IMG/VR virus record: IMGVR_UViG_3300049440_000019
Location: 1 to 43,817 of that record
Length of the DNA: 43,817 bases
Origin: a virus
Reading direction: 5' to 3' (one strand)
The notes below the pieces were generated by a model that did not search any database, was not told the origin of the DNA, and saw only the letters and a program-made list of their open reading frames with translations. Both the position numbers and the translations under genes were made by a program. Of this stretch, positions 4,148 through 43,817 are shown piece by piece (position 1 is the stretch's first letter; each line of letters starts with the position of its first letter).

Positions 4148-4347
4148 AGCACTTCCTCAATGTCGAACTCGATGCGAAACTGGATCTCATCACGCGCCCA
4201 GTCGCACAGGGCATCAAAGTCTTCGTCGGAGTAGGTGTCACGGAACGCCCGAAGGCGTTCCTCCATCTCACCGCCGGGCCAGTAGGGAACTCGAACCGTA
4301 TGACTGTGGGAGGAGACGGAGAACTCGATGTACTGCGGATCACTCAT
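4144..4347 (-). CDS. 67-aa hypothetical protein
   Basis: ATG 4347 overlaps the upstream stop (ATGA). The N-terminal strands (YIEFSVSSHSHTVRVPYW) precede a helical acidic half (ERLRAFRDTYSDEDFDALCD). It was not recognised as a named family. A GGAACGCC/GGCGTTCC hairpin (4242-4261) lies inside the gene. Confidence 0.65.
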   Translation of the reverse strand: MSDPQYIEFSVSSHSHTVRVPYWPGGEMEERLRAFRDTYSDEDFDALCDWARDEIQFRIEFDIEEVL

Positions 4348-4589
4348 CAGTGCATCCCCAATGCAGGTTGGCTGGGATCGTATGCCGCAACGTAGTAGGT
4401 CTGGAACTTGTAGCCAGCGGGAAGGTTCTCTTCACTGATTGATTCGTGGAAAGTTGGATCAGGAAAGAATCCATACAGCATCTCGTTGAGCCAGAGACCA
4501 ACATCATCCCTGTCCTTGGCGATTGAACCACCGAGGACTACGGTATTGCGAGTGCCGTCGTACTCATAGTCAAGGTAGACCGCGTACAC
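4347..4589 (-). CDS. 80-aa hypothetical protein
   Basis: GTG 4589 overlaps the last base of the primase stop codon. The product is aromatic-rich (YAVYLDYEYDG, LYGFFPDP, YKFQTYYVAAYD) and appears to be a small globular alpha-beta protein. It was not recognised. It lies directly after the primase in the replication operon. Confidence 0.65.
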   Translation of the reverse strand: MYAVYLDYEYDGTRNTVVLGGSIAKDRDDVGLWLNEMLYGFFPDPTFHESISEENLPAGYKFQTYYVAAYDPSQPALGMH

Positions 4590-5236
4590 TACTTGGCCAT
4601 CTCCTTGATTCGCTCCGCACCATACTTCATGTACATGCTGTTGGTATCTTCTCCATCAGGATAGTGGATGATCACTCCAGCCATTCCCAGCTCAGACTGT
4701 ACTCGCTCTCCGAACTTACGGCCAGCCTCATCGCCATCACAGAACGTGAAGACTCTACGGAAGTCCCGCAGAAGGTCAGTCCACCAGGGAAGCCATGTTG
4801 TTGCACCTGGCACTGCAACCGCCGGGATTCCAACCAGCTCGGACATGGTGATTGCGTCGATCTCACCTTCCACCAATCCTATGTCAAGCGTATCCTTGAA
4901 CATATCGGCGACGCCGTAAAGCGTCGCCTCAAGCCCCTTGGGCTTCAAGTACTTCTTGTGGTCGGGGAGAGACTTGCAGTCATGGTCACGGATGCACCTG
5001 AAGGACATGTTGACTGTACCGGCAGGTGTGATGTAAGGGATGGACAGCCTGCCCTTGAATGCCTGGTGGCCTACGACTGGATCAACTACGACCCCAAGTC
5101 CTCTTGAAAGCGCTGACTGTCGATCTATCCCCCGACCTTCCAGGTACGGAATGGCGAGATCGAGATCCCTGGCGTACGTTTCCGTTGCCAGATCCAACAA
5201 TTTCCTCTGCTCGCTTGACAGCGTCCCAGTAGCCAA
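4589..5236 (-). CDS. DNA primase, catalytic/TOPRIM part
   Basis: 215 aa from TTG 5236, with AAGGAGG only three bases upstream. It carries the catalytic half of a DnaG-type primase: GRLSIPYITPAGTVNMSFR (about residues 62-80), the Cys/His pair region CIRDHDCK, then TOPRIM motifs VEGEIDA (about 122-128) and CDGDEAGRKFG (about 166-176). The TOPRIM acidic residues E123, D167 and D169 coordinate metal for RNA primer synthesis. The zinc-finger half is encoded by the overlapping upstream frame (5082-5450). In this frame a TGA lies just upstream of the TTG. The protein is therefore made either by internal initiation or as the product of a +1 frameshift from the upstream frame. Confidence 0.85.
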   Translation of the reverse strand: MATGTLSSEQRKLLDLATETYARDLDLAIPYLEGRGIDRQSALSRGLGVVVDPVVGHQAFKGRLSIPYITPAGTVNMSFRCIRDHDCKSLPDHKKYLKPKGLEATLYGVADMFKDTLDIGLVEGEIDAITMSELVGIPAVAVPGATTWLPWWTDLLRDFRRVFTFCDGDEAGRKFGERVQSELGMAGVIIHYPDGEDTNSMYMKYGAERIKEMAK

Positions 5237-5450
5237 GGCCCTCCTTCTTCATGATGAGCTGACATGCGTTGCCCTTCATGCCGCAAGCATGGCACACATA
5301 GACTTGTTCATCGTCGGTGCGAACGGATGCTGACGCATCCTTCTCGCCATGGAAGGCGCACCTCACGGTGCGCCAACCATGACCATCCTCTATGTCATCG
5401 AAGCCATAGTGCAAGAGGATTGGGGCTATCGGAAAGCTTGGAAGATCCAT
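5082..5450 (-). CDS. DNA primase, CHC2 zinc-finger part
   Basis: 122 aa. Residues 25-65 are a CHC2-type zinc ribbon: RCAFHGEKDASASV with C31 and H34, then YVCHACGMKG with C53 and C56. This module recognises template in DnaG primases. After about residue 85 the sequence becomes Arg/Ser-rich and is the out-of-frame shadow of the TOPRIM frame, which overlaps by 155 nt. The natural product may be a short zinc protein, or it may continue into the next frame by frameshift. The ATG at 5450 lies three bases after the upstream stop. Confidence 0.85.
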   Translation of the reverse strand: MDLPSFPIAPILLHYGFDDIEDGHGWRTVRCAFHGEKDASASVRTDDEQVYVCHACGMKGNACQLIMKKEGLGYWDAVKRAEEIVGSGNGNVRQGSRSRHSVPGRSGDRSTVSAFKRTWGRS

Positions 5451-5453
5451 GGA

Positions 5454-5780
5454 TCACCCGAAGCGATGAATGACCCAGTCGTTGTCGTCATCAAACTCAT
5501 GGTCGATGAGCAGTATGACACTCTTGGGATTCATCCAGTTTGCCGATCCGACGGCTTCAATCAGCCAATCAGGATTGATGTGATTGAAGGACCCTGCCCA
5601 GATGTCGGCACAGAAGAACTTATTGCCACCAGCCCAATCCATGTTGGATCCCTCCGCCATGGTGAACTGCTGCTTCCGAATCTCATCAAGTTCAGCCAGC
5701 CTGGCGTTGACCTCAGAGAGTCGGATTCGATCATTCTCGCCACCGCCCATCAAGACTATGGCATCGGTGATGACACTCAT
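5454..5780 (-). CDS. 108-aa hypothetical protein
   Basis: ATG 5780 overlaps the upstream TAA by one base. An N-terminal charged helix (about residues 15-40) is followed by a segment with WAGGNKFFCADIW and a strand-rich end (SVILLIDHEFDDDNDWVIHR). It was not recognised as a named family. It lies between a PD-(D/E)XK nuclease and the primase, so a role in DNA metabolism is possible but not shown. Confidence 0.7.
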   Translation of the reverse strand: MSVITDAIVLMGGGENDRIRLSEVNARLAELDEIRKQQFTMAEGSNMDWAGGNKFFCADIWAGSFNHINPDWLIEAVGSANWMNPKSVILLIDHEFDDDNDWVIHRFG

Positions 5781-6217
5781 TAAATCTCCCTGAGAAAGTT
5801 AGCTATGGGATTGGGGCTATCAGAAGGCCGGGAAGATCCCTTGAGTTTCCATAGTTCCCGCTTGAGTTCATCCCGCTCCTTGCTGACGAGATCGAACTGT
5901 GCCACCAGTGATGACCACCAGTCGAGTGTCATGAAGGTAGGCCACTCGTTAACTGTCGCCGGTCCCATCCCATCGGGCCGCATGATGACAACCGGCATCT
6001 CCCCGTTGGAGTTCTTGTGAGCCTGCTTGACCCACTCCTTCGGGTTGAATGCCCGCCTGGCCTTGACCTCGATGGCGATGCCGGGAACATCGAGGATGTC
6101 CTTGCCTGACAGGCTCGCCGGGTTTCGGCGAGCATTTGCGAAGCGAGGATAGGCGCGCAGGTAGTCAGCTACCACCTGTTCGCTCTCCCTGCCCCGACTC
6201 ACGCGACTGTTGGCCAT
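5780..6217 (-). CDS. PD-(D/E)XK nuclease, Holliday-junction-resolvase-like
   Basis: 145 aa. The layout matches small PD-(D/E)XK nucleases: an N-terminal helix with conserved Glu (GRESEQVVADYLR, E11), then SGKDILDVPG (D40), then IAIEVKARR (E50 and K52), then a strand with PVVIMRPDG. These acidic and Lys residues would bind metal and cut DNA. The Hjc-like size and order suggest a resolvase or structure-specific endonuclease for recombination or for trimming replication intermediates. It sits between the helicase and primase genes. The start overlaps the upstream stop (ATGA). Confidence 0.8.
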   Translation of the reverse strand: MANSRVSRGRESEQVVADYLRAYPRFANARRNPASLSGKDILDVPGIAIEVKARRAFNPKEWVKQAHKNSNGEMPVVIMRPDGMGPATVNEWPTFMTLDWWSSLVAQFDLVSKERDELKRELWKLKGSSRPSDSPNPIANFLREI

Positions 6218-6345
6218 CAGTGCCAGCTCTTGTCAACGTCATCGAAGTACTTGACCTGCCCGCACTCGCAGACATGCATGCCGAGCTGGCCGTCATACCT
6301 GTAGATGTGGCCCTTGTCGTACACGGGGCACCTGGTGTCACTCAT
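6217..6345 (-). CDS. 42-aa zinc-ribbon-like protein
   Basis: ATG 6345 overlaps the end of the upstream gene by 8 nt, and its own TGA overlaps the nuclease ATG. It contains one N-terminal Cys (DTRCPV), His residues, and C-E-C in HVCECGQVKYF. It resembles a very small zinc-binding protein. Function unknown. Coupling on both sides supports translation. Confidence 0.65.
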   Translation of the reverse strand: MSDTRCPVYDKGHIYRYDGQLGMHVCECGQVKYFDDVDKSWH

Positions 6346-6547
6346 GAGAGAACTCCTTGACAATGGCATCAGCGGCATGCTGAAAGATCAAGGCTTTGAA
6401 CTTCTCGAAGATGTACTCGGGATCAACCTCCCGGCTAGAAATCACACTGCAAACTTCCTCGCCGAAGAAACTGATGCTGATCTGATTGGTACCAGACCCC
6501 GTGCAACTGTAGTAGTGGTAATCAAAAGCTTCTACGGTAAGGGTCAT
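6338..6547 (-). CDS. 69-aa hypothetical protein
   Basis: The start is ATG 6547, which overlaps the TGA of the upstream zinc-ribbon gene by one base (TGATG). The longer open frame upstream is out-of-frame shadow. N-terminal strands (TLTVEAFDYHYYSCTGSG) precede SFFGEEVCSV and a C-terminal helix (FEKFKALIFQHAADAIVKEF). It was not recognised. Confidence 0.65.
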   Translation of the reverse strand: MTLTVEAFDYHYYSCTGSGTNQISISFFGEEVCSVISSREVDPEYIFEKFKALIFQHAADAIVKEFSHE

Positions 6548-6636
6548 CAGAACCACGCTCCGCACTTCAGGCAGATGCGACCGGTACTGTCGGCCTGTCG
6601 GGTCTTGTCGCTCTTGCAGTTCGGGCACTTGATCAT
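6547..6636 (-). CDS. 29-aa zinc-ribbon micro-protein
   Basis: ATG 6636 shares a base with the preceding TAA, and the TGA overlaps the next ATG. The peptide holds CPNC and CLKCGAW separated by a polar turn, the exact pattern of a minimal zinc ribbon with four cysteines. It is probably a free-standing zinc-binding peptide. Function unknown. Confidence 0.7.
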   Translation of the reverse strand: MIKCPNCKSDKTRQADSTGRICLKCGAWF

Positions 6637-6746
6637 TACCACTTCTCCCTACAGGCCATGCAGAAGTGCTGTCCCTCATGGCCAGCATTGAGATCGCAGT
6701 AGCAGCCGTCTTCAGATCCGGCCCGCTTGTTCTCGCAGCAGTTCAC
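6636..6746 (-). CDS. 36-aa Cys-rich micro-protein
   Basis: GTG 6746 lies in a GTGA overlap with the upstream gene, and its TAA overlaps the next ATG. The 36 residues contain six Cys (NCC, GCYC, CMAC) and His in GHEGQHFC, so two metal sites are possible. It is similar in layout to the next upstream mini-gene (6743-6850), which suggests they are related. Function unknown. Confidence 0.65.
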   Translation of the reverse strand: MNCCENKRAGSEDGCYCDLNAGHEGQHFCMACREKW

Positions 6747-6850
6747 CAGGTCTCACCGCATTGAACGCACACATGATCACCATCGTGATCATCCTTGCGA
6801 TTACAGAGACATGTCCCATGGGGGCAGATGTCCCAACACTTGTCACCCAT
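6743..6850 (-). CDS. 35-aa Cys/His-rich micro-protein
   Basis: The start is ATG 6850, overlapping the helicase stop by 8 nt. It contains six cysteines (KCWDICPHGTCLC and CVQC) plus several His/Asp (KDDHDGDHV), consistent with zinc binding. The H-x-G-x-H-x-C-x2-C ending is shared with the following 36-aa gene. Function unknown. Confidence 0.65.
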   Translation of the reverse strand: MGDKCWDICPHGTCLCNRKDDHDGDHVCVQCGETW

Positions 6851-7691
6851 TGTTCCACCACTTCTCGTCTTCGTCGCTGGGTTGTACGATCTCACGGACC
6901 TGACCATCTTCCAGGTCATCCTCATCATCATCTTCGATGCGGAACTGAGAGGGGAAGATGGGAAGAGTGAAGGTTGTCCTACCTGAAGGATCACTTGGCC
7001 CATTGCGGTTCTTCACAATCGCGTAGTGGACGCGATTGCCCTGGATCGCCTGAGTGATGATCAACTCAGGTAGCTGATTGGCCTTGCCCATGATGGACGA
7101 CATGGGAGGGCAGGGATCACCCTTGGCACTCTCACTTGTATGGTGCACGGCCAGAAGGGCCGTGTTCCACATGCCAGCGATCTCCTTCAGTTCTGGCATC
7201 AGGCGCCAGTAGTTCTGTTCCGCGACTCCATCATGGTCGATGTTCATCAGGATGTCAACGGTGGTCAGGTGAGGATACTCGCCGAATAGTTCCCGGAACG
7301 CTTCGCCATGATGAAGGATCTCTTCAATGTCAGGCTTGCTGTTGAAGTCGAACCTGATCTTCGCCCACTGGGCCAGGAACTTGCGAGCAAGCTCAGGCTT
7401 GCTCTCCACGATCTCCTTGCTGACAGCCATGTCCTGCTGGGTCAGCATCGAGAAGACTCGATTGATGATCGTATACTTCGTACTGTCGTTCGAGATGTAC
7501 AGGCTGGGAACTCGAAGCCTGTTGTTGATGTTCAAGCTGCTGATGGTCTTGCCGGAGCCAGGGCCACCAGTCAGCATCGTGACAGCACCACGGTACAGGA
7601 GCGCCTGATGGCGCTCGAATGCCTTGTAGGGTGCAGCCAGTGGCATGGAAGATGCCATGCCTTCCATCACCGCACGATCAAGAGAGCGCAC
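6843..7691 (-). CDS. RecA/DnaB-like replicative helicase ATPase
   Basis: 282 aa from GTG 7691, chosen because AGGTGG lies five bases upstream; ATG 7712 would add seven residues. Walker A is LTGGPGSGKT (about residues 40-49), Walker B is LTTVDILMNID, and AVHHTSES matches a sensor-type motif of the RecA fold. The compact single ATPase domain without an N-terminal DnaB primase-interaction domain resembles actinophage DnaB-like or RecA-like helicases that unwind the phage fork. A very acidic C-tail (IEDDDEDDLEDGQ) may bind partners. It sits upstream of nuclease and primase genes in the same operon. Confidence 0.85.
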   Translation of the reverse strand: MRSLDRAVMEGMASSMPLAAPYKAFERHQALLYRGAVTMLTGGPGSGKTISSLNINNRLRVPSLYISNDSTKYTIINRVFSMLTQQDMAVSKEIVESKPELARKFLAQWAKIRFDFNSKPDIEEILHHGEAFRELFGEYPHLTTVDILMNIDHDGVAEQNYWRLMPELKEIAGMWNTALLAVHHTSESAKGDPCPPMSSIMGKANQLPELIITQAIQGNRVHYAIVKNRNGPSDPSGRTTFTLPIFPSQFRIEDDDEDDLEDGQVREIVQPSDEDEKWWNNG

Positions 7692-7854
7692 TAAGCCACC
7701 TGTCAAGAGCATTCTTCAGGGCAGCGTACTCGGGATACTGCTCGGGTCGATAGTCGATGGTATAGAACAGCTCCCCGGAGAGCGACTTTACATCCATCGT
7801 GCCCATCTTGTACACCACGTTGCCATCATCGTCTACGAGTCGAAGGCTTGCCAT
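7678..7854 (-). CDS. 58-aa hypothetical protein upstream of helicase
   Basis: The start is ATG 7854, preceded by AGGAGTG. Upstream in-frame sequence crosses a hairpin and is not coding-like. N-terminal strands (ASLRLVDDDGNVVYKM) precede a C-terminal helix (YAALKNALDRWLSALS). It overlaps the helicase start by 14 nt. It may be a helicase partner by position only. Confidence 0.65.
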   Translation of the reverse strand: MASLRLVDDDGNVVYKMGTMDVKSLSGELFYTIDYRPEQYPEYAALKNALDRWLSALS

Positions 7855-7868
7855 ATTCACTCCTGAAA

Positions 7869-7888
7869 GGCGGGCCCGAAGGCCCGCC
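7869..7888 (-). promoter_or_regulatory. Intercistronic UUCG hairpin
   Basis: Eight-bp perfect stem (GGCGGGCC with GGCCCGCC) closed by TTCG on the transcribed strand, followed by TTTC, and then the ribosome site of the next gene. It may act as an attenuator, a processing site or an RNA-stability element. Confidence 0.7.
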
Positions 7889-7898
7889 ACTGGATCAG

Positions 7899-8369
7899 TT
7901 ACTCGGACTTGGGGGCGATGCGAGCGACGAACTTGTGGGGGCGAGCACCATCGCCTACGGCAGTCCCGAGACCGGACCACTTGAAGGCAAGGCGAGCGCC
8001 ATCAGGGATATCGGAGAGGTCGAGGCGCATCAGCTCTGCACCGATGGCAGCGTAGTGGCCGTTCTTCTGGAGCCAGATGTTCAGCTTCGGGTAGGTCTCG
8101 ATCACGGGAGGAGTGTCCTCATCCTCCTGGAAACGAGTGACTGTGGCATTGTCCAGCTCGATCACCTGAACGGTGACCTCACGCTTCTCACCCTGCCAGT
8201 CGTTGGTCTTGACGAACGGCTTGCCGACCTTGGCGACAGTGCCGTCAACCTTGTCGCCGATGTCCTTGAACTTGAAGTTCGGGTGTCGCGGGTAGTCCTT
8301 GTCGGAACCGCCGGTCTTCTCCCCGTTCGCACGGGCGAGAGCTTCAGCGTAAAGCGGGTTGATGGGCAC
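7899..8369 (-). CDS. Possible single-stranded-DNA-binding protein
   Basis: 156 aa from GTG 8369, with GGAAGG eight bases upstream. After a 30-residue polar leader, several strands (DKVDGTVAKVG, VTVQVIELDNATVTRF, LNIWLQKNGHYAA, RLAFKWSG) have the spacing of an OB-like barrel. It follows the recombination genes and precedes the helicase, where phages often place ssDNA-binding proteins. This is an inference from predicted strand pattern and context. No signature motif was recognised. Confidence 0.6.
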   Translation of the reverse strand: MPINPLYAEALARANGEKTGGSDKDYPRHPNFKFKDIGDKVDGTVAKVGKPFVKTNDWQGEKREVTVQVIELDNATVTRFQEDEDTPPVIETYPKLNIWLQKNGHYAAIGAELMRLDLSDIPDGARLAFKWSGLGTAVGDGARPHKFVARIAPKSE

Positions 8370-8391
8370 GTAGTACCTTCCTCAATGATTG

Positions 8392-8414
8392 AATGATACC
8401 CACTGGGTATCATT
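8392..8414. promoter_or_regulatory. Perfect 10-bp inverted repeat (operator-like)
   Basis: Arms AATGATACCC (8392-8401) and GGGTATCATT (8405-8414) are separated by three bases. It lies between two leftward genes, just upstream of the GTG at 8369 and after the stop at 8417. There is no T-tract, so a protein-binding operator or an mRNA hairpin is more likely than a terminator. Confidence 0.7.
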
Positions 8415-8416
8415 GC

Positions 8417-8605
8417 CTACTTTATGGAGATGATGATCTTGGAGTCGAGGGCTACCTGGACGGAATCGATCAACTCACTGATCTCCGAATGATGCAGGTG
8501 CATCAGTTCCGGCTTGAAGAACAGCCAGTCATCCAGCCTGCGAGCGGAAGGGTCGCCTGTCAGGCGAGCCTCAGTGAACTCCTTGGCCAATGCTACAGCA
8601 TCCAT
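8417..8605 (-). CDS. 62-aa hypothetical protein
   Basis: ATG 8605 overlaps the upstream stop by one base (TGATG). It is mostly helical, with basic and acidic residues (ALAKEFTEARLTGDPSARRL) and a C-terminal strand (SKIIISIK). It was not recognised. Its position suggests an accessory role in the recombination/replication operon. Confidence 0.65.
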   Translation of the reverse strand: MDAVALAKEFTEARLTGDPSARRLDDWLFFKPELMHLHHSEISELIDSVQVALDSKIIISIK

Positions 8606-8994
8606 CAGAAGTCTGCAAAGGGGTCACCAGCGGGCTTGGCAGACTGCTCCGCCACAACCTCCCAGGGCTTGACGGGAACGGCCTCTACGGGCCGTTCCCA
8701 GGGCTTCTGGGCCCTGTCCTGAACGTCGATCACCTTGGCGTCAAGCTCCTGGATGATCAACTCTTCAGGGGCAAGGCTGGGAGCGGCCTTCTTGATCGGC
8801 TCACTCAATGCCTTGACTGCCTGGTCTCGACCATACAGGACTGCCGCCTTGAGGCTGGCATGGTAGTCACCCAGGGCAACCTCCATGTCAACATCCTTGC
8901 CCAGGAAGAGATCGGAGAACTCTTCACCGCTGATCGTCAGATGAACGTACTCCCACTGTCCAACGCTGACTGCGAATTCTGCCGAGTAGCTCAA
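8605..8994 (-). CDS. 129-aa protein with SSB-like acidic tail
   Basis: It starts with TTG 8994 in a TTGA overlap with the Cas4-like gene. The N-terminal half is strand-rich (SVGQWEYVHLTISGEEFSDL), the middle is a helix with Lys/Arg, and the C-terminus is Pro-rich and ends in DPFADF. That end resembles the acidic-aromatic tips by which SSB proteins recruit partners. It may work with the neighbouring exonuclease. A 10-bp perfect hairpin (8674-8699) lies inside the gene. Confidence 0.6.
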   Translation of the reverse strand: MSYSAEFAVSVGQWEYVHLTISGEEFSDLFLGKDVDMEVALGDYHASLKAAVLYGRDQAVKALSEPIKKAAPSLAPEELIIQELDAKVIDVQDRAQKPWERPVEAVPVKPWEVVAEQSAKPAGDPFADF

Positions 8995-9848
8995 AACGGA
9001 ATCACTCCATCCTTCTCGGGTGTGTCATAGTAGTTGGTCCGGGGGGTCTTGCCTGACATGGTGCGGCAGTTCAGGATCTGGGGACAGAACTTGCAGTTGA
9101 ACTGAGCAAGGGCAGGGAAGACGCCCTTCTGGATCTTCCGCTCCACCTCATGGTACATGGCACCCATGGACTCGGGAGTTTCCTTGAGAGTCACCGGACG
9201 CGCTTTAGGCGCGTCCGGATTGAGCATGACCCACAGGCCAGTGTAGTCGGGTCGGCCAAGACTGTAGTCCCTACCTGAACACGGAAGATCGAGAAGCTTC
9301 GACCCAAGGAGGGCCTTGTACGTCTCAAGCTGAAGGTTGTCCTTCGGCTTTGACTTACCAGTCTTCCAGTCCACGATCACTGGGCCATGCTTCTTGTGTT
9401 CACCGAGGAGGTCAGGGAATGCCTTGATGATCATCTCACATCCAGGCAGATAGCCTGTGATGTCAGGCTCTACTTCCCAGACTTCGATCTCTTCAAGGAA
9501 GTCTTCAGCCTTTTGGACACAAGCGATCGAGAGGGCAAGAGCCCTCTCTTCGATGACTGGCTCTTCCTTGGAGCCACCATGGAGCCACTTGGAAGTGTCT
9601 GGCTCGATGGCCATGAGTCGGGAGACTTCGTCATAGAAGAAGTCTTCGACGGAACGGGGAGGGTAGCCGACGGAGGGACCGAGGTATTCGGCTGACTTGA
9701 GCAGGCACTCAATGTACTTATGGACAGCAGTGCCAATAGCAAAGTACCAGGCAGGAACCGCTTCAGCATTCTTGATCCGTGACAGATAGTAGCTGCGTGG
9801 ACATGACTTGTAACTGGAGAGCGATGAGTAGCTCAAGTGATCGACCAT
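8991..9848 (-). CDS. Cas4/RecB-family exonuclease
   Basis: 285 aa. The motifs of the Cas4/PD-(D/E)XK family appear in order: SYSSLSSYKSCPRSYYLSRI (C16), GTAVHKYIE (H43), FPDLLGE (D146), VIVDWKTGKSK (D160 and K162), QLETYKALL, and a C-terminal CKFCPQILNC (C252, C255, C261). The four Cys should hold an Fe-S cluster, as in Cas4 and AddB. Such phage enzymes act as 5'-3' or 3'-5' exonucleases in recombination or end processing. A TACAAT hexamer lies six bases before the ATG, so the gene may also have its own leaderless promoter. There is no CRISPR array here. Confidence 0.88.
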   Translation of the reverse strand: MVDHLSYSSLSSYKSCPRSYYLSRIKNAEAVPAWYFAIGTAVHKYIECLLKSAEYLGPSVGYPPRSVEDFFYDEVSRLMAIEPDTSKWLHGGSKEEPVIEERALALSIACVQKAEDFLEEIEVWEVEPDITGYLPGCEMIIKAFPDLLGEHKKHGPVIVDWKTGKSKPKDNLQLETYKALLGSKLLDLPCSGRDYSLGRPDYTGLWVMLNPDAPKARPVTLKETPESMGAMYHEVERKIQKGVFPALAQFNCKFCPQILNCRTMSGKTPRTNYYDTPEKDGVIPF

Positions 9849-9863
9849 TCACTCATTGTACCA

Positions 9864-10547
9864 CTAGGGGTGGCTTGAGAATGCCCCCTTGACCCTCATC
9901 CTGTGGCACTTCAGGCAGACCCATTGCCCGACCTGCTTGCCATTGCGCTCATAGTAGGAGAATTTGCCGAACTCCGCAGTCCTTGGATGACCATGGCTGC
10001 ATGTGGACTTGACCCTTGCCCTTGCATCCCGGCAAGGGATGCAGAAGTTGATCGTCATGGGAAGTCCCTTTCGGGTGACTTCCTTCTTGCCCCAATTCTC
10101 GGGGGTCTTGGGGTGTCCATTGGAGCAGGACTTGTTGGCAGACATTGCCTTGTAGGCAATGGTCGCCTTCATGTTCTGGCATCCTCGGCACCCTTGATTG
10201 CGGATGTCTTCGATGCTCAAGATCCCATGAAGACCTTCACGGCAGATGCCTCTCTCAAGGAGTGTGGCACCTTCACGTGGCTTGAGAGGTGGCTCCTTGG
10301 GGAGCCACTTTGTCGCCTTGGGCCTTGATGACTTGGATCCGAAACGTTCTGGCATCAAGCCAGAACGTACTGACCAGAAGAGATCTTCAGTAGTAGCACC
10401 AGTCAGACATTCATGGGTGACTGGGCACTTGGAGCAGAACATGTCAATGTAGCTCTGTGCATCTTTCTTGCTACCTGGAGTCGGATCTGAATCAGGGCTG
10501 CATGTAGCGAAGTCTTTCCAGTCATCCATGTCTTTGGACTTCTTCAT
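9864..10547 (-). CDS. WhiB-like protein fused to three zinc-finger repeats
   Basis: 227 aa. Residues 8-70 carry a WhiB layout: C16, C38, C41 and C47 (C-x2-C-x5-C at the end), followed by LFWSVRSGLMPERFG, the place of the usual G[VI]WGG turn. WhiB proteins bind a [4Fe-4S] cluster and usually contact sigma factor to regulate transcription in actinobacteria. Residues 100-220 hold three repeats of C-x3-4-H/GH ... C-x2-C (C102/C120/C123, C141/C169/C172, C183/C211/C214) that resemble zinc modules of actinophage HNH-type proteins. The start ATG 10547 has GGGGAGTGA. It may redirect host transcription. The fusion is unusual. Confidence 0.75.
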   Translation of the reverse strand: MKKSKDMDDWKDFATCSPDSDPTPGSKKDAQSYIDMFCSKCPVTHECLTGATTEDLFWSVRSGLMPERFGSKSSRPKATKWLPKEPPLKPREGATLLERGICREGLHGILSIEDIRNQGCRGCQNMKATIAYKAMSANKSCSNGHPKTPENWGKKEVTRKGLPMTINFCIPCRDARARVKSTCSHGHPRTAEFGKFSYYERNGKQVGQWVCLKCHRMRVKGAFSSHP

Positions 10548-10562
10548 TCACTCCCCGTTCCA

Positions 10563-10586
10563 AGACGGCCCCCAAAGGGGCCGTCT
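10563..10586. promoter_or_regulatory. GC-rich hairpin upstream of WhiB-like gene
   Basis: Ten-bp perfect stem (AGACGGCCCC with GGGGCCGTCT) and 4-base loop in the leader of the 9864-10547 gene. No T-tract follows on the transcribed strand. It is another intercistronic hairpin of the kind found throughout this genome. Confidence 0.65.
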
Positions 10587-10786
10587 CTCTGATATATAGA
10601 CAAGTCAGGCTTGCCTTACTTTACTGTCCATCTGTTGGCGAGCTCTTGCTTACCTGGTTAGGCTGCTTGTCGTGCTCCCTTGGGGTCGCACTCGGCAGCC
10701 TTTCGGGGCTTCTTGGTTATCTTGTCTTGCCTTCGCTCTTGAGCTTATCATACGCCACCAAATCACGCAACCTCACGGTGACGTGG
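10587..10786. other. Non-coding spacer between leftward gene groups
   Basis: About 200 bases without a convincing gene. On the minus strand there is an 11-bp perfect hairpin (10772-10796, overlapping the upstream stop) and an AT-rich TATATATC that could be a -10. Several CTTGCT/CTTGCC words recur on the plus strand. Short frames of 19-33 codons exist but none has both a ribosome site and coupling. Confidence 0.5.
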
Positions 10787-10906
10787 TCACCGTGAGTAGT
10801 CAAGGGGCTTCAGATAGTGACAGGAGCAGCGACACCAGACACAGGAGCCAGGCTCTGTGGACTCATGCCTGCCCTCAAGGCAGGCCGTGCTCTTGTGATC
10901 ACTCAC
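10787..10906 (-). CDS. 39-aa Cys-rich protein
   Basis: GTG 10906 has AGGAG seven bases upstream and overlaps the end of the preceding gene by 8 nt. The sequence has one early Cys, two His, and a dense cluster near the end (SCVWCRCSCHYL), consistent with metal binding. It adds to the set of micro-proteins in this operon. Function unknown. Confidence 0.6.
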   Translation of the reverse strand: MSDHKSTACLEGRHESTEPGSCVWCRCSCHYLKPLDYSR

Positions 10907-11090
10907 CCCAGCGCTCCTGACTGAAGTCGGACCACACTCCGGGCTTAGGGCTGCACGTCCCCAGGTGGGCAACTACGGCCTCTTCAGTGAACTCCTGGAC
11001 CAACTCCCCAGACTGCTCCCGTGAGGCCGCCAGAGCGGCCTTCTTGGACCGTGCAGAGGCGGGCTTGAAGGTGCCCTTGCGATGCCTCAT
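10899..11090 (-). CDS. 63-aa hypothetical protein with basic N-terminus
   Basis: ATG 11090 overlaps the upstream stop (ATGA). The N-terminus is very basic (MRHRKGTFKPASARSKKAAL), followed by an acidic middle (ELVQEFTEEAVVAHL). It might bind nucleic acid. It was not recognised. Confidence 0.6.
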   Translation of the reverse strand: MRHRKGTFKPASARSKKAALAASREQSGELVQEFTEEAVVAHLGTCSPKPGVWSDFSQERWGE

Positions 11091-11251
11091 CGGTGCAGCT
11101 CCCTTTCAATCTCGAAGATGAACTTCCAGGTGTCACTACTGGAGCTGTGCTCGGGCTCATTGGACCAGAGGACCGCGTTGAGAATGCTCTGGAACAGATC
11201 CTCGTCAATAGTGAGAGTGATCATGCGCTTGCTGATGCTGAACTCGTTCAC
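11087..11251 (-). CDS. 54-aa hypothetical protein
   Basis: GTG 11251 lies in a GTGA overlap with the upstream gene, and the TGA overlaps the next ATG. It reads as a small alpha-beta protein (RMITLTIDEDLFQSILNAV, then FIFEIERELHR). It was not recognised. Confidence 0.65.
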   Translation of the reverse strand: MNEFSISKRMITLTIDEDLFQSILNAVLWSNEPEHSSSSDTWKFIFEIERELHR

Positions 11252-11610
11252 AGGTTCTCCTCGATCCAGTCAGCTATCTCGTTAAAGATCTTGAGTTCAC
11301 TGTCATTCATGCATGACAGCACCCTGGCCGCTTCCTCGCTGATTCCAGTGCGCTTGATCGTCTCATCAGGAAGGAAGGAGAAGTTCAGATAGGCGGCCGG
11401 GTTAATGGCATCACGGTACACGGAGAGTTCAGAACCGTAAAGGACCACCCTGACAAGAAGGCCCTTCTTTTCCTCGATGTCGCAGGCAACGCCAAGGCAG
11501 CAGAACTCGCCCTGCTTGTTTCGGAGTGCGCCTCGACCCTGTGGATACTCGCCACTTCGCAGTGCGGCAAGCCAGTCAGCCTTGAACTCAGGATTCATCT
11601 TCTGGTACAT
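11248..11610 (-). CDS. Conserved phage protein with CCLGVACD motif
   Basis: The start is taken as ATG 11610 (120 aa), with AAGGAG ten bases upstream; ATG 11619 is too close to that site. It begins MYQKMNPEFKADWLAALRSG, then QGRGALRNKQGEFCCLGVACD. This W-x-ALRSG-Y-QG-GALR ... CCLGVxCD pattern is a widespread phage and bacterial family of unknown function that I recognise from pattern only. It is the first gene of the leftward block and is divergent from the metallophosphoesterase gene 38 bases away. Confidence 0.75.
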   Translation of the reverse strand: MYQKMNPEFKADWLAALRSGEYPQGRGALRNKQGEFCCLGVACDIEEKKGLLVRVVLYGSELSVYRDAINPAAYLNFSFLPDETIKRTGISEEAARVLSCMNDSELKIFNEIADWIEENL

Positions 11611-11613
11611 GAT

Positions 11614-11642
11614 TTGCATACTCCTTCGACTGATCGTATAGT
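11614..11642 (+). promoter_or_regulatory. Promoter for leaderless metallophosphoesterase mRNA
   Basis: TTGCAT (11614-11619), 17 bases, TATAGT (11637-11642), then six bases before the ATG at 11649. Transcription would begin at or next to the A of the start codon, and no ribosome site is present. A leaderless mRNA, common in actinobacteria, is therefore inferred. Confidence 0.7.
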
Positions 11643-11648
11643 TGACAC

Positions 11649-12407
11649 ATGGCGACACGAACTGCACTCATCATTCCGGACCTACAGGTACCGCTGCATG
11701 ACTCGGAGTACGTCAGCAAGCTAATTGACGTAGCCGAGTATGTCTCCCCGGATATTCTTCTGTTCATCGGGGACCTGACTGACAGCACAGAGGTCAGTCG
11801 CTGGGTGAAGGGTCGTCCCGGTGAGTTCACGGGCAACCTTCAGGATGCCTTCGATCAGACGAAGAGCATCGTGCAGCGCTTTCGCGCTGCTGTCGGAGAA
11901 GACTGTGAGGTGATCTTGCAGGATTCCAACCATGACGAGAGGACTCGTAAGTATGTTGAGCAATATGCGCCCGCGCTGTCATCGCTGCGTTCTCTTGACC
12001 TTGAATCTCTCCTGGGTCTTGACCGAGCCAAGGTCTCATTGGTGCATGGAGTGCACGAGTTCCTACCCGGAGTGGTGTCTTTCCATGGACACGAGAGGGC
12101 TTATACAAGCATCCCGGGTCGCTGGGGACTCCTCCGAGTGGTGGAGCACGGTAAGCATATCGTCTATGGACACACTCACACACCTGGGCTGTTCGTAACA
12201 GCCCAGGGAATTGGCGAGGATCGCAAGAATCTCTGGGCCATGAACGTCGGTCACGGCATGGACATGAAGAAGGCCGAGTATCTCCAGGATGGCTATGCCA
12301 CCTGGGCTCAAGGCTTCGGGGTCATCACTCACGATGGCGTCAATGCCATGCCGGAGCTGGTCGTGGCCATGGACGGGAAGTTTCAGTTCGATGGGAGGAT
12401 CTGGTGA
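11649..12407 (+). CDS. Calcineurin-like metallophosphoesterase
   Basis: 252 aa. The metal-binding motifs of the metallophosphatase superfamily are in order: IIPDLQVPLHD (D11, in the place of the usual DxH), FIGDLTDS (GD, D42), SNHDE (N94, H95), VSFHGHE (H146) and YGHTHTPG (H174, H176). Such phage enzymes hydrolyse phosphodiesters or phosphomonoesters; a DNA/RNA end-processing or 2',3'-cyclic phosphate substrate is possible but cannot be told here. It is the first gene of a short rightward unit that lies between two leftward blocks. An 11-bp perfect hairpin (12183-12207) lies inside it. Confidence 0.88.
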   Translation: MATRTALIIPDLQVPLHDSEYVSKLIDVAEYVSPDILLFIGDLTDSTEVSRWVKGRPGEFTGNLQDAFDQTKSIVQRFRAAVGEDCEVILQDSNHDERTRKYVEQYAPALSSLRSLDLESLLGLDRAKVSLVHGVHEFLPGVVSFHGHERAYTSIPGRWGLLRVVEHGKHIVYGHTHTPGLFVTAQGIGEDRKNLWAMNVGHGMDMKKAEYLQDGYATWAQGFGVITHDGVNAMPELVVAMDGKFQFDGRIW

Positions 12408-12529
12408 TGGATGAGACCGAGGAGATCACTATCAAACTTCCAGATCTTGAGTTGTACAAGGCGATCGGATGGCTTGACCAGGGTGGAATCTTCCACGAAT
12501 TCAAGGAGGTGACCGATGGATCTCAGTAA
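12407..12529 (+). CDS. 40-aa acidic hypothetical protein
   Basis: ATG 12407 overlaps the stop of the phosphoesterase gene (TGATG). It is 40 residues with an acidic start (MDETEEITIKLPDLELYKA) and a terminal helix. It overlaps the next gene by 14 nt; the ribosome site of that gene (AAGGAGG) lies within its end. Function unknown. Confidence 0.6.
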   Translation: MDETEEITIKLPDLELYKAIGWLDQGGIFHEFKEVTDGSQ

Positions 12530-13211
12530 GATCACTCCATGGATCGACAGTGCCGCAACCTTCACATATCGGGCATATGCATCTTGGATCTCTCTTCCTG
12601 ATGTGAAGGCGCGGCTCTGGCTCTGGACCATCGAGAACGAAACCCGAGTGGATGACTATCTCAGCCAGCCGGATGGAGAGCGGATAGTCCGCTCAATCCT
12701 CTCCAAGGAGGCCCGAACCTACGCACTTAAGGAGCGCGCAGTGAGCAATGGAGTTGACCCGGCAGATCTGGCCTGGTACTCGGTCACCATGATTCGCAAG
12801 ATCCTGCCTGATGTCTTCGATTATGAGGACTGGCAGTCTTTCGAGTCAGGTGGTTCTGATGGTCGAGGCAGCAAGCCGGTCGCCAATGCGACCGGAGACA
12901 GGCTGGCCTACATCCTGGATATCAAGGGAGCACTCACCTCGCTCCAGGAAGATCATGTGGGGCTGCTCCGCGAGCACTATGGCAAGGGGGTCAGCCTGAA
13001 GGCTTGTGCTATCGCCCTCGGCATCAGTGACGACGCCTGCCAGAAGCGGCTACAGCGCGCCGTGTACGCCATCGCAGACAAGCTCAACGGAGTTCGTGAG
13101 CACGACCCCTACGAGGCTGTCAACGGGCAGTTCGACACTCGCACGAAGGGCCGCAAGGCCATGTCCAACGCAGCCGCAAGGGCTGCTACTGATGCGAACT
13201 GGTCCGAGTAA
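12516..13211 (+). CDS. Sigma-region-4-like transcription regulator
   Basis: 231 aa from ATG 12516, with AAGGAGG eight bases upstream. Residues 139-190 contain the sigma-70 region 4 pattern: a helix with LQEDHVGLLREHYGKG, then SLKACAIALGISDDACQKRL as the helix-turn-helix, then RAVYAIADKL. Region 2 is not evident in the N-terminal 130 residues, which are helical and aromatic. It could replace sigma contacts at middle or late phage promoters or act as an anti-sigma/regulator. The isolated rightward unit and its terminator fit an independently timed regulator. Confidence 0.7.
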   Translation: MDLSKITPWIDSAATFTYRAYASWISLPDVKARLWLWTIENETRVDDYLSQPDGERIVRSILSKEARTYALKERAVSNGVDPADLAWYSVTMIRKILPDVFDYEDWQSFESGGSDGRGSKPVANATGDRLAYILDIKGALTSLQEDHVGLLREHYGKGVSLKACAIALGISDDACQKRLQRAVYAIADKLNGVREHDPYEAVNGQFDTRTKGRKAMSNAAARAATDANWSE

Positions 13212-13228
13212 CTGACAGTTGGTGAATC

Positions 13229-13250
13229 GACAGGGCCGGAAGGCCCTGTC
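13229..13250. terminator. Convergent hairpin between 13211 (+) and 13257 (-)
   Basis: Nine-bp perfect stem GACAGGGCC/GGCCCTGTC with a GGAA (plus) or TTCC (minus) loop, placed exactly between convergent gene ends. The T-tract is weak on both sides (TCATCATC). The position strongly suggests a bidirectional terminator. Confidence 0.7.
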
Positions 13251-13256
13251 TCATCA

Positions 13257-13724: not shown

Positions 13725-13896
13725 TCACGTCAATCAAGATGACGTGATGCCCACTGATCACGCAATTGCCGAATACCATAGATCCGCCAGTGGCAAGCAT
13801 GTCACCCATCTTGGTCAGGGCTTCATTTCTGGTAAGATCTGTATCCCAGTCAGCATTGGTGTATGACCCATCAGAGGTGCGGATTCTGATCTTCAT
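13711..13896 (-). CDS. 61-aa hypothetical protein
   Basis: The start is ATG 13896, with GAAGGG six bases upstream. Strand-helix-strand layout: KIRIRTSDGSYTNAD, then an Arg/Lys helix, then GNCVISGHHVILIDVIDVA. It was not recognised. Confidence 0.65.
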   Translation of the reverse strand: MKIRIRTSDGSYTNADWDTDLTRNEALTKMGDMLATGGSMVFGNCVISGHHVILIDVIDVA

Positions 13897-36610: not shown

Positions 36611-36684
36611 CTCGCAATAGCTCAGTTAGGCAGAGCGCTGGTTTTGGGAACCAGAGGTCGAAGGTTCGAATCCTTCTTACGAGA
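36611..36684 (+). tRNA. tRNA-Pro (anticodon UGG)
   Basis: Acceptor CTCGCAA/TTACGAG (one C-A mismatch), D-arm GCTC...GAGC, anticodon arm CTGGT-TTTGGGA-ACCAG with anticodon TGG, T-arm GAAGG-TTCGAAT-CCTTC. CCA is not encoded. It is a complete cloverleaf. Confidence 0.85.
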
Positions 36685-36692
36685 CTACCCGC

Positions 36693-36805: not shown

Positions 36806-36880
36806 TCCTCTGTAGCTTAGTGGGCGAGAGCGCCGGTAAGGGTACCGGAGTAGTGAGTTCGAATCTCACCAGAGGAGCCA
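36806..36880 (+). tRNA. tRNA-like gene with abnormal anticodon loop
   Basis: Perfect acceptor TCCTCTG/CAGAGGA, D-arm GCTT...GAGC, T-arm GTGAG-TTCGAAT-CTCAC and encoded CCA. The anticodon arm CCGGT/ACCGG has a 6-base loop AAGGGT and no U33, so the identity cannot be assigned. The acceptor resembles tRNA-Asn/Thr types. It is either a decayed tRNA or a tRNA mimic. Confidence 0.6.
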
Positions 36881-37516: not shown

Positions 37517-38482
37517 ATGGCCAACCTGGTCCAGACTGCCTATGACCGTGAGCTTGAGTTCGCACTGCGCGCTCAGCCGATGTTCCGTCGGGTCGCCGAC
37601 AAGCGACCCGCCCAGCAGGCTATGCCTGGTTCGTCTGTCGTGTTCGAGATCTACCAGGATCTCGCTCAGCAGATCACCCCGCTCAATGAGCTGGTTGACC
37701 CTGATGCCGTTTCGGCGGGTAACCCGACTACTGTTTCGGTTACCCTGAACGAGTATGGCAACTCGATCCTGGTCAGCAACAAGCTCGATCTGTTCTCCTT
37801 CACCGACATCACTGCCGGTCTGGTCAACCAGGTTGCGTGGAACCTGATCGACTCTGTTGACCTGATCGTTCAGAATGTTCTGGCTGCTGGCACCCAGACT
37901 GTCCGACGGAACCCGGGCACTGGTGCTATTACCTATGGTTTCGGCACCACGCCGACTCAGCCTACCGCGCTGAACACCATCGACAACTCCACGAACTCCC
38001 TGTTCTCCAGCACTGTCGCACGGTTCTCTGTGGCGAAGCTTCGGGCTAACAAGGTTCACCCGACCACCAACACCTACTACACGGCTTACATCCACCCTGA
38101 GATCAGTCACGACCTTCGGGCCGAGACTGGTTCTGCCGCCTGGCGTGACCCGCACAACTACAGTGCGGCTGACAACATCTGGATGGGCAACATCGGCGAG
38201 TATGAGGGTGCGGTCTACCTTGAGACTCCTCGCGCTCAGAATGTCCAGTCCGGTGCTGGTGCCGGTGCCACCCAGACCCGCGTGTACAACACCTACTTCG
38301 CTGGCCAGCAGGCTCTTGCCGAGGCTTGCGCGGAGGAGTTCCACACCATCCGTGGTCCGGTGGTTGACAAGCTGACCCGCTTCCAGCCTCTCGGTTGGTA
38401 CGGTGTGGCTGGCTGGTCCCTGTACCGTCCCGAGGCTCTGATCGTTGCTCAGACCTCCTCCACGGTTCGCCCGAACGCGTAA
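37517..38482 (+). CDS. Major capsid protein
   Basis: 321 aa. It follows the scaffold and is itself followed by a strong terminator, as expected for the most abundant product. The sequence has the HK97-fold (N4-gp56-like) style: N-terminal helix (TAYDRELEFALRAQPMFRRV), E-loop (SVVFEIYQDLAQQITPLNEL), long spine helix (GLVNQVAWNLIDSVDLIVQN) and a P-domain with YTAYIHPEISHDLRAETG. No strong ribosome site is seen upstream of the ATG, which is odd for an abundant product. Confidence 0.85.
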   Translation: MANLVQTAYDRELEFALRAQPMFRRVADKRPAQQAMPGSSVVFEIYQDLAQQITPLNELVDPDAVSAGNPTTVSVTLNEYGNSILVSNKLDLFSFTDITAGLVNQVAWNLIDSVDLIVQNVLAAGTQTVRRNPGTGAITYGFGTTPTQPTALNTIDNSTNSLFSSTVARFSVAKLRANKVHPTTNTYYTAYIHPEISHDLRAETGSAAWRDPHNYSAADNIWMGNIGEYEGAVYLETPRAQNVQSGAGAGATQTRVYNTYFAGQQALAEACAEEFHTIRGPVVDKLTRFQPLGWYGVAGWSLYRPEALIVAQTSSTVRPNA

Positions 38483-38493: not shown

Positions 38494-38519
38494 GGGAGGC
38501 CCTTCGGGGCCTCCCTTTC
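38494..38519 (+). terminator. Terminator after the capsid gene
   Basis: Nine-bp perfect stem GGGAGGCCC/GGGCCTCCC with TTCG loop followed by TTTCTTC. Partial termination here would set capsid above the downstream head and tail genes. Confidence 0.85.
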
Positions 38520-39236: not shown

Positions 39237-39517
39237 TGTCTGACTTCCGATACAAGCAGAGCTATGAGCAGCAGTACTACCCCAGCAAGAATCCCAAGCC
39301 AGCTGAGCCCATGTCTGGCTATCCCTGCAAGGACTACTGCTGCGTCGGTGCCTCTCCTGGTGGCACCGACAACCGTCACATGTGGGATGAGAAGGCTGGT
39401 CTGGATCAGATCGTCAAGGCTGAAGCCGATCAGGCTACCCATGGCTACATGAACAGCAACCACGATAGCCAGAAGCAGGGTGTCTACGCAACGAACTCGG
39501 TGGGAGACTATGACTAA
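39236..39517 (+). CDS. 93-aa hypothetical protein
   Basis: ATG 39236 shares its first base with the preceding TGA. It has N-terminal aromatic residues (DFRYKQSYEQQYYPSK), two cysteines near PCKDYCCVGASPGGTD, then many His/Asp. Metal binding is possible. It was not recognised. Confidence 0.6.
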   Translation: MSDFRYKQSYEQQYYPSKNPKPAEPMSGYPCKDYCCVGASPGGTDNRHMWDEKAGLDQIVKAEADQATHGYMNSNHDSQKQGVYATNSVGDYD

Positions 39518-39755
39518 GTGCCGCACTGGGTGTGTCACCCGGAATCACAGGTCTTACGCTGAGTGCGCCCGTGGACTTCAGATCAACACTGGACTTGACC
39601 TTACCTTCGGCCAGAAGAAGTGGGATGCAGAACTGAGCGCTTACCGCTCAGCTCGCGCTCAGGGTATCCAACCAGACGGTACCACCATGGACAAGGTGGA
39701 GGCTGCATTCAGGAAGAGCGACGCTTCAGGCGTCGCTTATGGGAGTGATCAGTAG
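39510..39755 (+). CDS. 81-aa conserved phage protein with Cys-rich start
   Basis: The start is ATG 39510, overlapping the upstream stop. The pattern CRTGCVTRNHRSYAECARGL, then KKWDAELSAYRSARAQGIQP, recurs in actinophage head regions (recognised from memory): C-x3-C with a nearby H and C as a zinc site, then a helix. The role is unknown but is probably head-tail related. Confidence 0.75.
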   Translation: MTKCRTGCVTRNHRSYAECARGLQINTGLDLTFGQKKWDAELSAYRSARAQGIQPDGTTMDKVEAAFRKSDASGVAYGSDQ

Positions 39756-40635: not shown

Positions 40636-41186
40636 TGAGTCAAGTCAATGTGAACATTGACAACCAGCCCATTGGGATGATTCCCCAGAAGGATCCGTCC
40701 TACAGGGGAGTCTATGACTTCGGCATTACTGATGTCATCGGCATTGTTGCTGCCAACAACTATATGACGATTGTCAATCCGGTCGGCTCCGGCCGACTGG
40801 TTGTCCCGACTGGCATCTTCATCAGTTGCTACATCGCAAGTGGAGCTTCTTCTACCAGGAACTCTCTTCAGGGTCTCACTGCCACCGCCGTAAGCGGTGG
40901 CACTCTGGCATCATCTTCTGCTATCACCAAGTTCGACAGCACATATCCGAATGCAGTTGCCGAGGTGAGGAGTGGCAGTGTCACCGCTACTCCTGGGTCC
41001 AATGTCTTCAACTCCCCTCCCCCGATTGGGCCTACTGCCGCAACTTACGTGCACTCGGTCGGCTATGGTGCTTCGACTGGTGCTGGCGGATTCTTCTTAC
41101 GACCAGGCGAGGGCCTGGTCTTTCGTACTGCTACCGGGAATATCAACCAAACCTGGAACATGAGTATCACCTGGGGTGAGATCTAG
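40635..41186 (+). CDS. 183-aa beta-rich virion protein
   Basis: GTG 40635 overlaps the upstream stop. The first residues (SQVNVNIDNQPIGMIPQ) recall the start of copy A (AQVNVALNDG). Strand-rich, with RPGEGLVFRTATGNINQTW at the end. A 9-bp hairpin (40880-40902) lies inside. Probable tail or fibre-associated protein. Confidence 0.65.
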   Translation: MSQVNVNIDNQPIGMIPQKDPSYRGVYDFGITDVIGIVAANNYMTIVNPVGSGRLVVPTGIFISCYIASGASSTRNSLQGLTATAVSGGTLASSSAITKFDSTYPNAVAEVRSGSVTATPGSNVFNSPPPIGPTAATYVHSVGYGASTGAGGFFLRPGEGLVFRTATGNINQTWNMSITWGEI

Positions 41187-42481: not shown

Positions 42482-42489
42482 GGATACCA

Positions 42490-43401
42490 ATGGCTCAGAG
42501 CCGCTTCTACAGTGCGACCGCCCAGCCAACGGTACTCACTGCCAACATCACCCCATCACAGACGACCATCTCGGTTCAGCAGACTGTCGGGTTCCCCGTC
42601 AATACGCCGTACATTCTGGCCCTTGGATACAACAGCCCGAGCGAAGAGATCGTGCTGGTCACCAATCAGGCTGGCACGACTCTCACCGTTACCCGCGCGT
42701 ATGACGGAACTGCTGCCACCAACCACAGTTCCGGTGATCCCGTCCGTCATACATGGACTGCCATGGATGGCAATGACAGTCGAGCCCATGAGGGCTCGAC
42801 CTCTGGGGTTCATGGGGTTGTCGGCAATGTGGTGGGAACCACTGACACCCAGACCCTTACGAACAAGACTCTCACCTCCCCGACCGTCTCTGGTGCCACC
42901 ATCAGTGGCACCTTCAGCGGCAATGTGAACTGGGCAAGCAATCAGGCATTTCTCAGTGGAGCCTCTTTCGGGGGCTCTGGCCAGGCATTCCTGAACTCCT
43001 CTGGCATCATGACTGCCTATCCGTCCACTGCCATCACTCCGTTGTGGGTTTCAAGTGGGACCTCTCCATCAGTCGGCAATGGCACTCTTACCGGTGAGTA
43101 CTACCAGTTGGGCAAGATGGTGTGGATCAACATCGTCCTTACCCTTGGGTCCACTAGTACCATTGGAACTGGCAACTACACCTTCTCCGTCCCATCTGCT
43201 CCTGCCGCCGTGAGTCGTGGTGCTGGTAGCGCACGACTCTTCAAGGTATCAGGTGCCAATGTGGTCTTGTCTCCATGGTTCTCAGCTGGCAATACTATCA
43301 CTCCGGATACTACTGCCGGAGCTAGCTTTGCCTCAACCAACTGGGGCACTCAGTCCGCTGGTGACCAGTTGACTTTCTCGATTGTCTACAAGTCTGTCTA
43401 A
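42490..43401 (+). CDS. Tail fibre / receptor-binding protein
   Basis: 303 aa. Residues 117-130 (TTDTQTLTNKTLTSPT) are the signature repeat of many phage tail fibres. The N-terminal domain (AYDGTAATNHSSGDPV, EGSTSGVHGVVG) is also common in fibre proteins. The C-terminal 150 residues are strand-rich with LGKMVWINIVLTLGS. It likely trimerises and contacts the host surface. A 9-bp hairpin (42779-42800) lies inside the gene. Confidence 0.8.
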   Translation: MAQSRFYSATAQPTVLTANITPSQTTISVQQTVGFPVNTPYILALGYNSPSEEIVLVTNQAGTTLTVTRAYDGTAATNHSSGDPVRHTWTAMDGNDSRAHEGSTSGVHGVVGNVVGTTDTQTLTNKTLTSPTVSGATISGTFSGNVNWASNQAFLSGASFGGSGQAFLNSSGIMTAYPSTAITPLWVSSGTSPSVGNGTLTGEYYQLGKMVWINIVLTLGSTSTIGTGNYTFSVPSAPAAVSRGAGSARLFKVSGANVVLSPWFSAGNTITPDTTAGASFASTNWGTQSAGDQLTFSIVYKSV

Positions 43402-43410
43402 GGGGTTCTC

Positions 43411-43817
43411 ATGGGTTTCGGAACCCTTATCCAGCGAATCACATACAAGATCAGTGGCCGGAGCGCTGCAAGCTCCGGCCTCTATACTCCATCTACCTAC
43501 GTCTATGACTATGCAGTTGGTGGAACTCCGTTCATGTCGGCGACAGCTGATCAGCGTCCCGACACTGAGAAGCCTGTAGGCCAACGCAAGCAGCAGTTCG
43601 ACAACTTCAAGGATCCCGGTGAGTACAGCCTTGATCAGTGGTGGCTTCGCTCCCAGAACTCCTTCACCGGTGGAGCCGGTGTCCTCTACCAGGATCCCGA
43701 TACCGCTGGTGTCTCCTCTGGAACATCGGTCAATATCCGGTACAACCGGAGTGTTGGTGTCGATCCGTTCAGCAGTCCTGGATTCCTCAAGCTTCTTCCG
43801 GAGATGAACAAGTCTGC
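43411..43817 (+). CDS. Large tail protein, 5' part (continues at base 1)
   Basis: ATG 43411, preceded by AAGGGG. Open to the end of the window and in frame with the segment at 1-1874 after circular closure, giving about 717 aa. The first residues (MGFGTLIQRITYKISGRSA) are followed by strand-rich sequence (YDYAVGGTPFMSATADQ). A 9-bp hairpin (43456-43480) lies inside. See the 1-1874 entry for the rest. Confidence 0.85.
   Translation, partial: MGFGTLIQRITYKISGRSAASSGLYTPSTYVYDYAVGGTPFMSATADQRPDTEKPVGQRKQQFDNFKDPGEYSLDQWWLRSQNSFTGGAGVLYQDPDTAGVSSGTSVNIRYNRSVGVDPFSSPGFLKLLPEMNKS
43691..43817. repeat. Right copy of 127-bp terminal identity
   Basis: This is identical to bases 1-127. It should be counted once when the genome is circularised. 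Confidence 0.95.

Follow-up and report, generated by a model that had tools for sequence, protein, structure and literature searches.

RNA viruses are known for genome-scale ordered RNA structure, in which an excess of secondary structure extends through coding sequence. Intrinsic transcription terminators, including the U-lacking 'I-shaped' and bidirectional terminators of GC-rich Actinobacteria, are much smaller elements, formed by a short GC-rich stem with a C-G closing pair and a loop of 3–8 nt, with A before the stem and T-rich positions after it. In Streptomyces clavuligerus, 353 of 535 highly structured transcript ends lack a U-rich tract and thus form the commoner structured class (PMC8269248), and in E. 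coli ribosomes repress terminators located late in the coding region (PMC4824070). Many perfect inverted repeats also occur in conserved coding sequence of the mitochondrial genomes of Nematomorpha, where palindromes of up to 284 bp are kept together with protein function (PMC6649704). Template switching during replication can likewise yield perfect stems and compensatory changes, and inversion of the loop is a published signature of it (PMC8794818).

The DNA analysed here, all 43,817 bases of a virus record and referred to as the window, carries many short hairpins, most of them inside genes. These share with RNA viruses a genome-wide excess of structure in coding sequence, but in this dsDNA phage the excess is limited to perfect Watson-Crick stems that are short and enclose loops of 3–7 nt. 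They resemble intrinsic terminators in stem, loop size and closing pair and, when all clades are pooled, in the A before and the T after the stem, and the hairpins between genes fit that type well; unlike terminators, however, they lie mostly deep in genes, number dozens per genome, show weak T enrichment and have a stem length fixed by lineage. In contrast to the long mitochondrial palindromes, the phage hairpins have stems of 7–11 bp and loops that are short and follow a defined grammar. A literature search found no paper on hairpins in the Beephvirinae, the subfamily to which the window is related, and the main text of the paper on Abafar, a virulent podovirus of the same group, mentions neither hairpins nor terminators (PMC11536984).

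Genome organization of the phage

The window is a podovirus-like genome whose closest named relatives are the Streptomyces Beephvirinae Immanuel3, WRightOn and JXY1. The plus strand carries the late genes, which start with the terminase (21364), reach the end of the window and continue to about 2.9 kb, and the early module, on the minus strand, occupies most of 2.9–20 kb and encodes a primase, a RusA-like resolvase, a DnaB-like helicase and a PD-(D/E)XK nuclease. The primase shows up as two minus-strand ORFs (4589–5008 and 5082–5450), which may reflect a split gene or a frameshift; in Immanuel3 and WRightOn, too, the annotation DNA primase falls on two ORFs, which overlap in those phages. The window has two tRNA sequences (36611–36685, 36806–36880), one tRNA-Pro and one tRNA-like with an abnormal anticodon, in place of the tRNA array of Immanuel3 and WRightOn, which comprises more than 20 genes, and tRNA was the sole match in an Rfam search. 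The gene at 27830–32656(+) encodes a conserved 1608-aa protein of unknown function (phrog_10618, without a Pfam match) that, among annotated phages, is confined to Streptomyces phages of the window's group. Genes were called with a simple purpose-made caller. At least two real genes escaped it, and some of the hairpins labelled intergenic are therefore in fact coding.

Hairpin excess in the window and in related phages

An earlier note on this DNA had listed 14 perfect inverted repeats as lying in genes on both strands. All 14 are present and perfect, and 13 are genic, two of them (5355–5374 and 10344–10368) once the gene list is corrected; the remaining hairpin, at 43456–43480 (9 bp stem, loop of 7), falls outside the called genes. 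Those in minus-strand genes are 4242–4261 (8 bp, with a UUCG loop on the mRNA strand; gene 4144–4347), 5355–5374 (8 bp; the primase-like ORF 5082–5450), 8674–8699 (10 bp, loop 6; gene 8605–8994), 9194–9218 (10 bp, loop 5; the PD-(D/E)XK, Cas4-like, nuclease gene 8991–9848), 10344–10368 (10 bp, loop 5; a WhiB-like ORF, 9864–10547), 14512–14536 (10 bp, loop 5; gene 13927–14553) and 16876–16898 (9 bp, loop 5; gene 16756–16974). On the plus strand lie 12183–12207 (11 bp, loop 3; a metallophosphoesterase gene, 11649–12407), 30326–30346 (8 bp, loop 5; the gene of the 1608-aa protein), 32847–32871 (11 bp, loop 3; gene 32659–33486), 39717–39737 (8 bp, loop 5; gene 39510–39755), 40880–40902 (9 bp, loop 5; gene 40650–41186) and 42779–42800 (9 bp, loop 4; a tail-fibre-like gene, 42490–43401). 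The stems that were compared have no sequence in common, and a shared loop or flank is found only in small intergenic sets, so the hairpins do not form a dispersed repeat family of the REP/BIME type.

The earlier list is far from complete, since stems of 7 bp or more number 131 in the window. Among them are 80 perfect stems that have at least 8 bp and loops of 3–7 nt, where chance would give 3; of these 80, 58 lie within genes. With loops of 3–8 nt there are 82 such stems, against 4.65 in dinucleotide shuffles, and 20 stems of at least 10 bp, against 0.22, a chance value close to the 0.2 estimated earlier. Shuffles of synonymous codons do not reproduce the hairpins either: the called genes hold 56 stems of at least 8 bp (5.7 in shuffles) and 13 of at least 10 bp (0.33), and in 16 large genes the corresponding counts are 31 (2.58, with a maximum of 5 in 40 shuffles) and 9 (0.05). 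The excess, which is thereby confirmed, is limited to loops of about 3–7 nt; in the window, mirror repeats and loops outside this range, longer ones included, stay at background level or close to it.

Relatives of the window were collected as 120 loci in IMG/VR (numbered here with the prefix L), found with its terminase and capsid. Stems of at least 8 bp are in 4- to 34-fold excess in all 120; in round terms, the window and its relatives have dozens of in-gene hairpins, 10 to 25 times the number due to chance. With a 7 bp minimum stem, the ratio to expectation is 7–9 in the relatives, 1.2 in phiC31-like phages and 1.8 in unrelated nuclease-bearing phages; at 8 bp or more it is 0–1.1 in R4, D29, T7 and Bacillus phage Page (Pagevirus), and 2–3 in lambda, phiC31, a human-gut phage contig and ct2KA10, the last with 50% capsid identity. 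These counts are not independent, as the sequences are related and identical hairpins only were collapsed. With the excess present in every relative and slight or absent in the controls, the trait belongs to the window's lineage; it is not found in distant capsid relatives or in Streptomyces phages generally.

Stem length, turnover and spacing

Stem length differs between lineages, the preferred value being 7 bp in some, 8 bp in Immanuel3 and 9–10 bp in others. In coding sequence, the stems of L028–L032 end at 7 bp (73 of exactly 7 bp, 11 of exactly 8 bp) and those of the Immanuel3 group at 8 bp (49 of 7 bp, 43 of 8 bp and 11 of 9 bp), whereas those of L018, L020–L023, L063, L065, L068 and L072 reach 9–11 bp, with loops of 5–7. 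These differences are highly significant (chi-square 155), with a p-value made optimistic by the relatedness of the sequences, and stem length agrees between regions of a contig that are mostly distinct, with about 6 kb shared by the paired loci. A trans-acting reader, either a phage protein or the host polymerase complex, might recognise the in-gene hairpins throughout the genome by the length of the stem rather than by its sequence, the required length drifting from 7 to 10 bp between lineages; this idea is less likely than not.

The positions of the hairpins turn over fast, and at 70–80% identity the full stem was kept by 100 of 1,291. On polarised branches the break rate of in-gene stems was about 0.8 times that of controls, and breaks in intergenic stems were about a tenth as frequent. 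Compensatory double changes in the stems of related phages nevertheless number 29, against about 2.5 expected, which together with the codon-preserving shuffles supports the earlier proposal that structure rather than sequence is selected. In one relative (L055), a G-C pair of hairpin 39717–39737 has become A-T by change on both sides, and an 8 bp hairpin with an altered loop remains at 42779–42800; in another (L135, 80% identity), hairpin 5355–5374 has the same stem and differs in the loop alone, and 8 bp of hairpin 9194–9218 are retained. A further site lies in the terminase gene (21364–23268, plus strand), near hairpin 22418–22440 (8 bp stem, loop of 7), where many relatives have covarying hairpins of 8–11 bp at the same place and arginine codons change along with the facing residue (CCT with AGG, CCG with CGG, ACG with CGT). 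The covariation score of this structure is 0.196, against 0.087 in shuffles (none of 500 as high) and 0.05–0.15 for slid versions of it. A one-base length difference inside a hairpin was also observed between L045 (28581) and L051 (11615), with perfect stems in both phages; this stretch is annotated as CDS in the JXY1 record (L051).

Hairpins occur roughly once per 300–600 nt and are spaced more evenly than at random, with a pair correlation of 0.25–0.96 below 350 nt and near 1 beyond. A search for a regular period found none, just short-range avoidance.

Loop grammar and flanking sequence

Stems are GC-rich (0.72, against 0.62 in long-loop controls), as in the stable hairpin of an intrinsic terminator. 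Inside genes, 61% of closing pairs are C-G against 33%, and 52% of loops have Y..R ends against 16%. Chance hairpins of 4–5 bp, matched by locus, served as background for odds ratios, which are 2.9 (z 16) for C-G closing, 4.7 (z 20) for T..G loop ends and 2.6 (z 11) for C..A loop ends. These preferences imply that the in-gene sequence must fold. The RNA nearest-neighbour energy model agrees with a preference for C-G rather than G-C as closing pair, the DNA model does not, and the Y..R ends are predicted by neither set of parameters.

Loop ends are mostly alike on both strands except that T..G is favoured over C..A in the mRNA sense (OR 1.69, z 4.6 overall; OR 2.68, z 6.0 for pentaloops; matched by locus). 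Hexaloops show no such bias. Against background, the bias of pentaloops is found both in late plus-strand genes (OR 2.9) and in early minus-strand genes (OR 3.7), and thus tracks transcription, not the genome strand. The flanks of in-gene hairpins are enriched for T at +1 to +3 (OR 1.41, z 7.7) and for A at −3 to −1 (OR 1.32, z 6.5); the reverse order, with A downstream and T upstream, shows no enrichment in genes. This is the flank order of terminators that are read in both directions. The effect grows with stem length and holds overall but not in every clade, as it is clear in the window's own (T OR 1.42, A OR 1.36), about 1.1 in long-stem clades and absent in L028–L032. The statistics were refined over several analyses, and modest effects such as UNCG loops in genes and flanks in single clades need care. 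The doubt that this brings is far from touching the excess, the loop grammar or the differences in stem length. The sense bias of the loop ends and the A/T flanks favour RNA, and the hairpins probably act as RNA, with both strands read.

Intergenic hairpins of terminator type

Between genes, many hairpins belong to the host type of intrinsic transcription terminator. UNCG loops occur on the sense strand in 51 cases against 4, T is found at +1 in 56% and makes up 45% of positions +1 to +3, and the Y..R loop ends and C-G closing pairs are shared with the in-gene hairpins. The canonical example, a 10 bp hairpin followed by CTTTTT at 2894–2917, lies between the convergent late (plus) and early (minus) modules and was the clear case in a terminator scan of positions 1–20000 of the window, which listed few of the hairpins described here. 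Two others of terminator type have UUCG loops, one at 38494–38515 on the plus strand, directly 3' of the major capsid gene (37517–38482), and one at 7869–7888 with a TTT tail on the minus strand.

Other intergenic hairpins share short sequences. Unlike stems at 15871–15893, 16386–16408 and 18297–18319 have the same loop, TCGAG, which reads CTCGA on the gene strand, and AACTACTCRG follows two of these hairpins at equal distance (15899, 16414); the three may form a small family of elements in leaders or close to promoters. The sequence CTCCCCGTTC(C/A)A directly precedes two non-genic hairpins with different stems (10551–10586 and 21229–21266), and has no other exact copies in the window.

In-gene hairpins depart from the canonical terminator in that no tract of several U follows their stems directly, the T enrichment at +1 to +3 being limited to the OR of 1.41, and in that they are not placed at the ends of transcription units, with most stems lying in genes and no general clustering near stop codons. 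A loop profile trained on the intergenic hairpins found the in-gene loops not terminator-like and without a sense bias, a bias that the background-matched test of loop ends did detect.

Possible function and alternatives

The in-gene hairpins belong to a selected and folded set of short hairpins, lineage-wide and both within and between genes, and those in genes may be a weaker form of terminator without the full U-tract. RNA polymerase would pause or terminate at them on antisense, read-through or uncoupled sense RNA that ribosomes do not follow closely; on normal mRNA, translating ribosomes would override them. They would probably be read on transcripts of both strands, and such two-way reading would explain why in-gene stems do not tolerate G.U pairs. 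We assign this reading a probability of roughly 0.4. Among the functions suggested in the earlier note, an effect on RNA polymerase fits best, given the mRNA-sense loop bias and the A-upstream, T-downstream flanks; cruciforms, priming signals and packaging signals are not supported. Against an action on RNA polymerase stands that the lineage-specific stem lengths are not obviously predicted by it; the weak and uneven A/T flanks, the in-gene loops that the profile finds unlike terminators and the hexaloops free of sense bias also count against it.

An artefact of composition, codon usage or gene calling is scarcely credible: the genes missed by the caller do place some coding hairpins among the 'intergenic' ones, but an excess of about tenfold or more survives both types of shuffle, the controls with long loops and with mirror repeats, and an analysis confined to large genes. 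Chance and composition are ruled out by the same shuffles and controls. A mutational origin without function, in which template switching at replication perfects imperfect inverted repeats, would account for Watson-Crick stems, for the compensatory double changes and for the fast turnover of positions, and one exact inversion of a hexaloop (CCTGAA/TTCAGG) on identical stems was found between L010:799 and L037:2173, at 97% identity. Loop inversions are not, however, more frequent than under shuffled pairing (1 exact against 1.0), pair-making substitutions are raised for transitions only and not for transversions, so that gains follow ordinary transitions, and the mechanism leaves the even spacing, the lineage-specific stem length, the loop-end grammar and the A/T flanks unexplained. 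Template switching is thus a minor source at most, and as the whole explanation quite improbable.

The remaining alternatives are functional, and both are unlikely. A role at the DNA level, in which single-stranded DNA folds during replication and forms, for example, priming or helicase-loading sites along both strands, finds its players in the primase and DnaB-like helicase that the phage encodes; it also agrees with the enrichment of C..A loop ends, which are T..G ends seen from the opposite strand, with the mutual avoidance of hairpins below about 350 nt and with a genome-wide stem length per lineage, such as a co-evolving reader would give. It fails to predict the mRNA-sense bias of pentaloops in both gene orientations, and the preference for C-G over G-C closing fits the energy model of RNA but not of DNA. 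The restriction to Watson-Crick pairs in genes, where G.U fares no better than A.C, was considered a pointer to DNA and has been withdrawn, because intergenic terminators avoid G.U too despite their clear RNA marks; the lack of G.U in genes therefore neither separates DNA from RNA nor by itself shows two-way reading. Elements that act in mRNA other than on RNA polymerase, such as sites where exoribonucleases are blocked, RNA is processed or ribosomes pause, would share the preferences of folded hairpins, the mRNA-sense loop bias and the even spacing at the observed density, but predict neither A just upstream and T just downstream nor the enriched antisense-type loop ends.

Implications

A dsDNA phage lineage with 80–130 selected hairpins per genome, mostly inside conserved genes, is unusual, and no report of one was found in the literature searched. 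One caution is that structure in RNA or DNA shapes the choice of codons in these genes. If the hairpins do act on transcription, translation would work as a password, whereby only RNA followed by ribosomes escapes, and the phages would have a general way of silencing antisense and read-through transcription.
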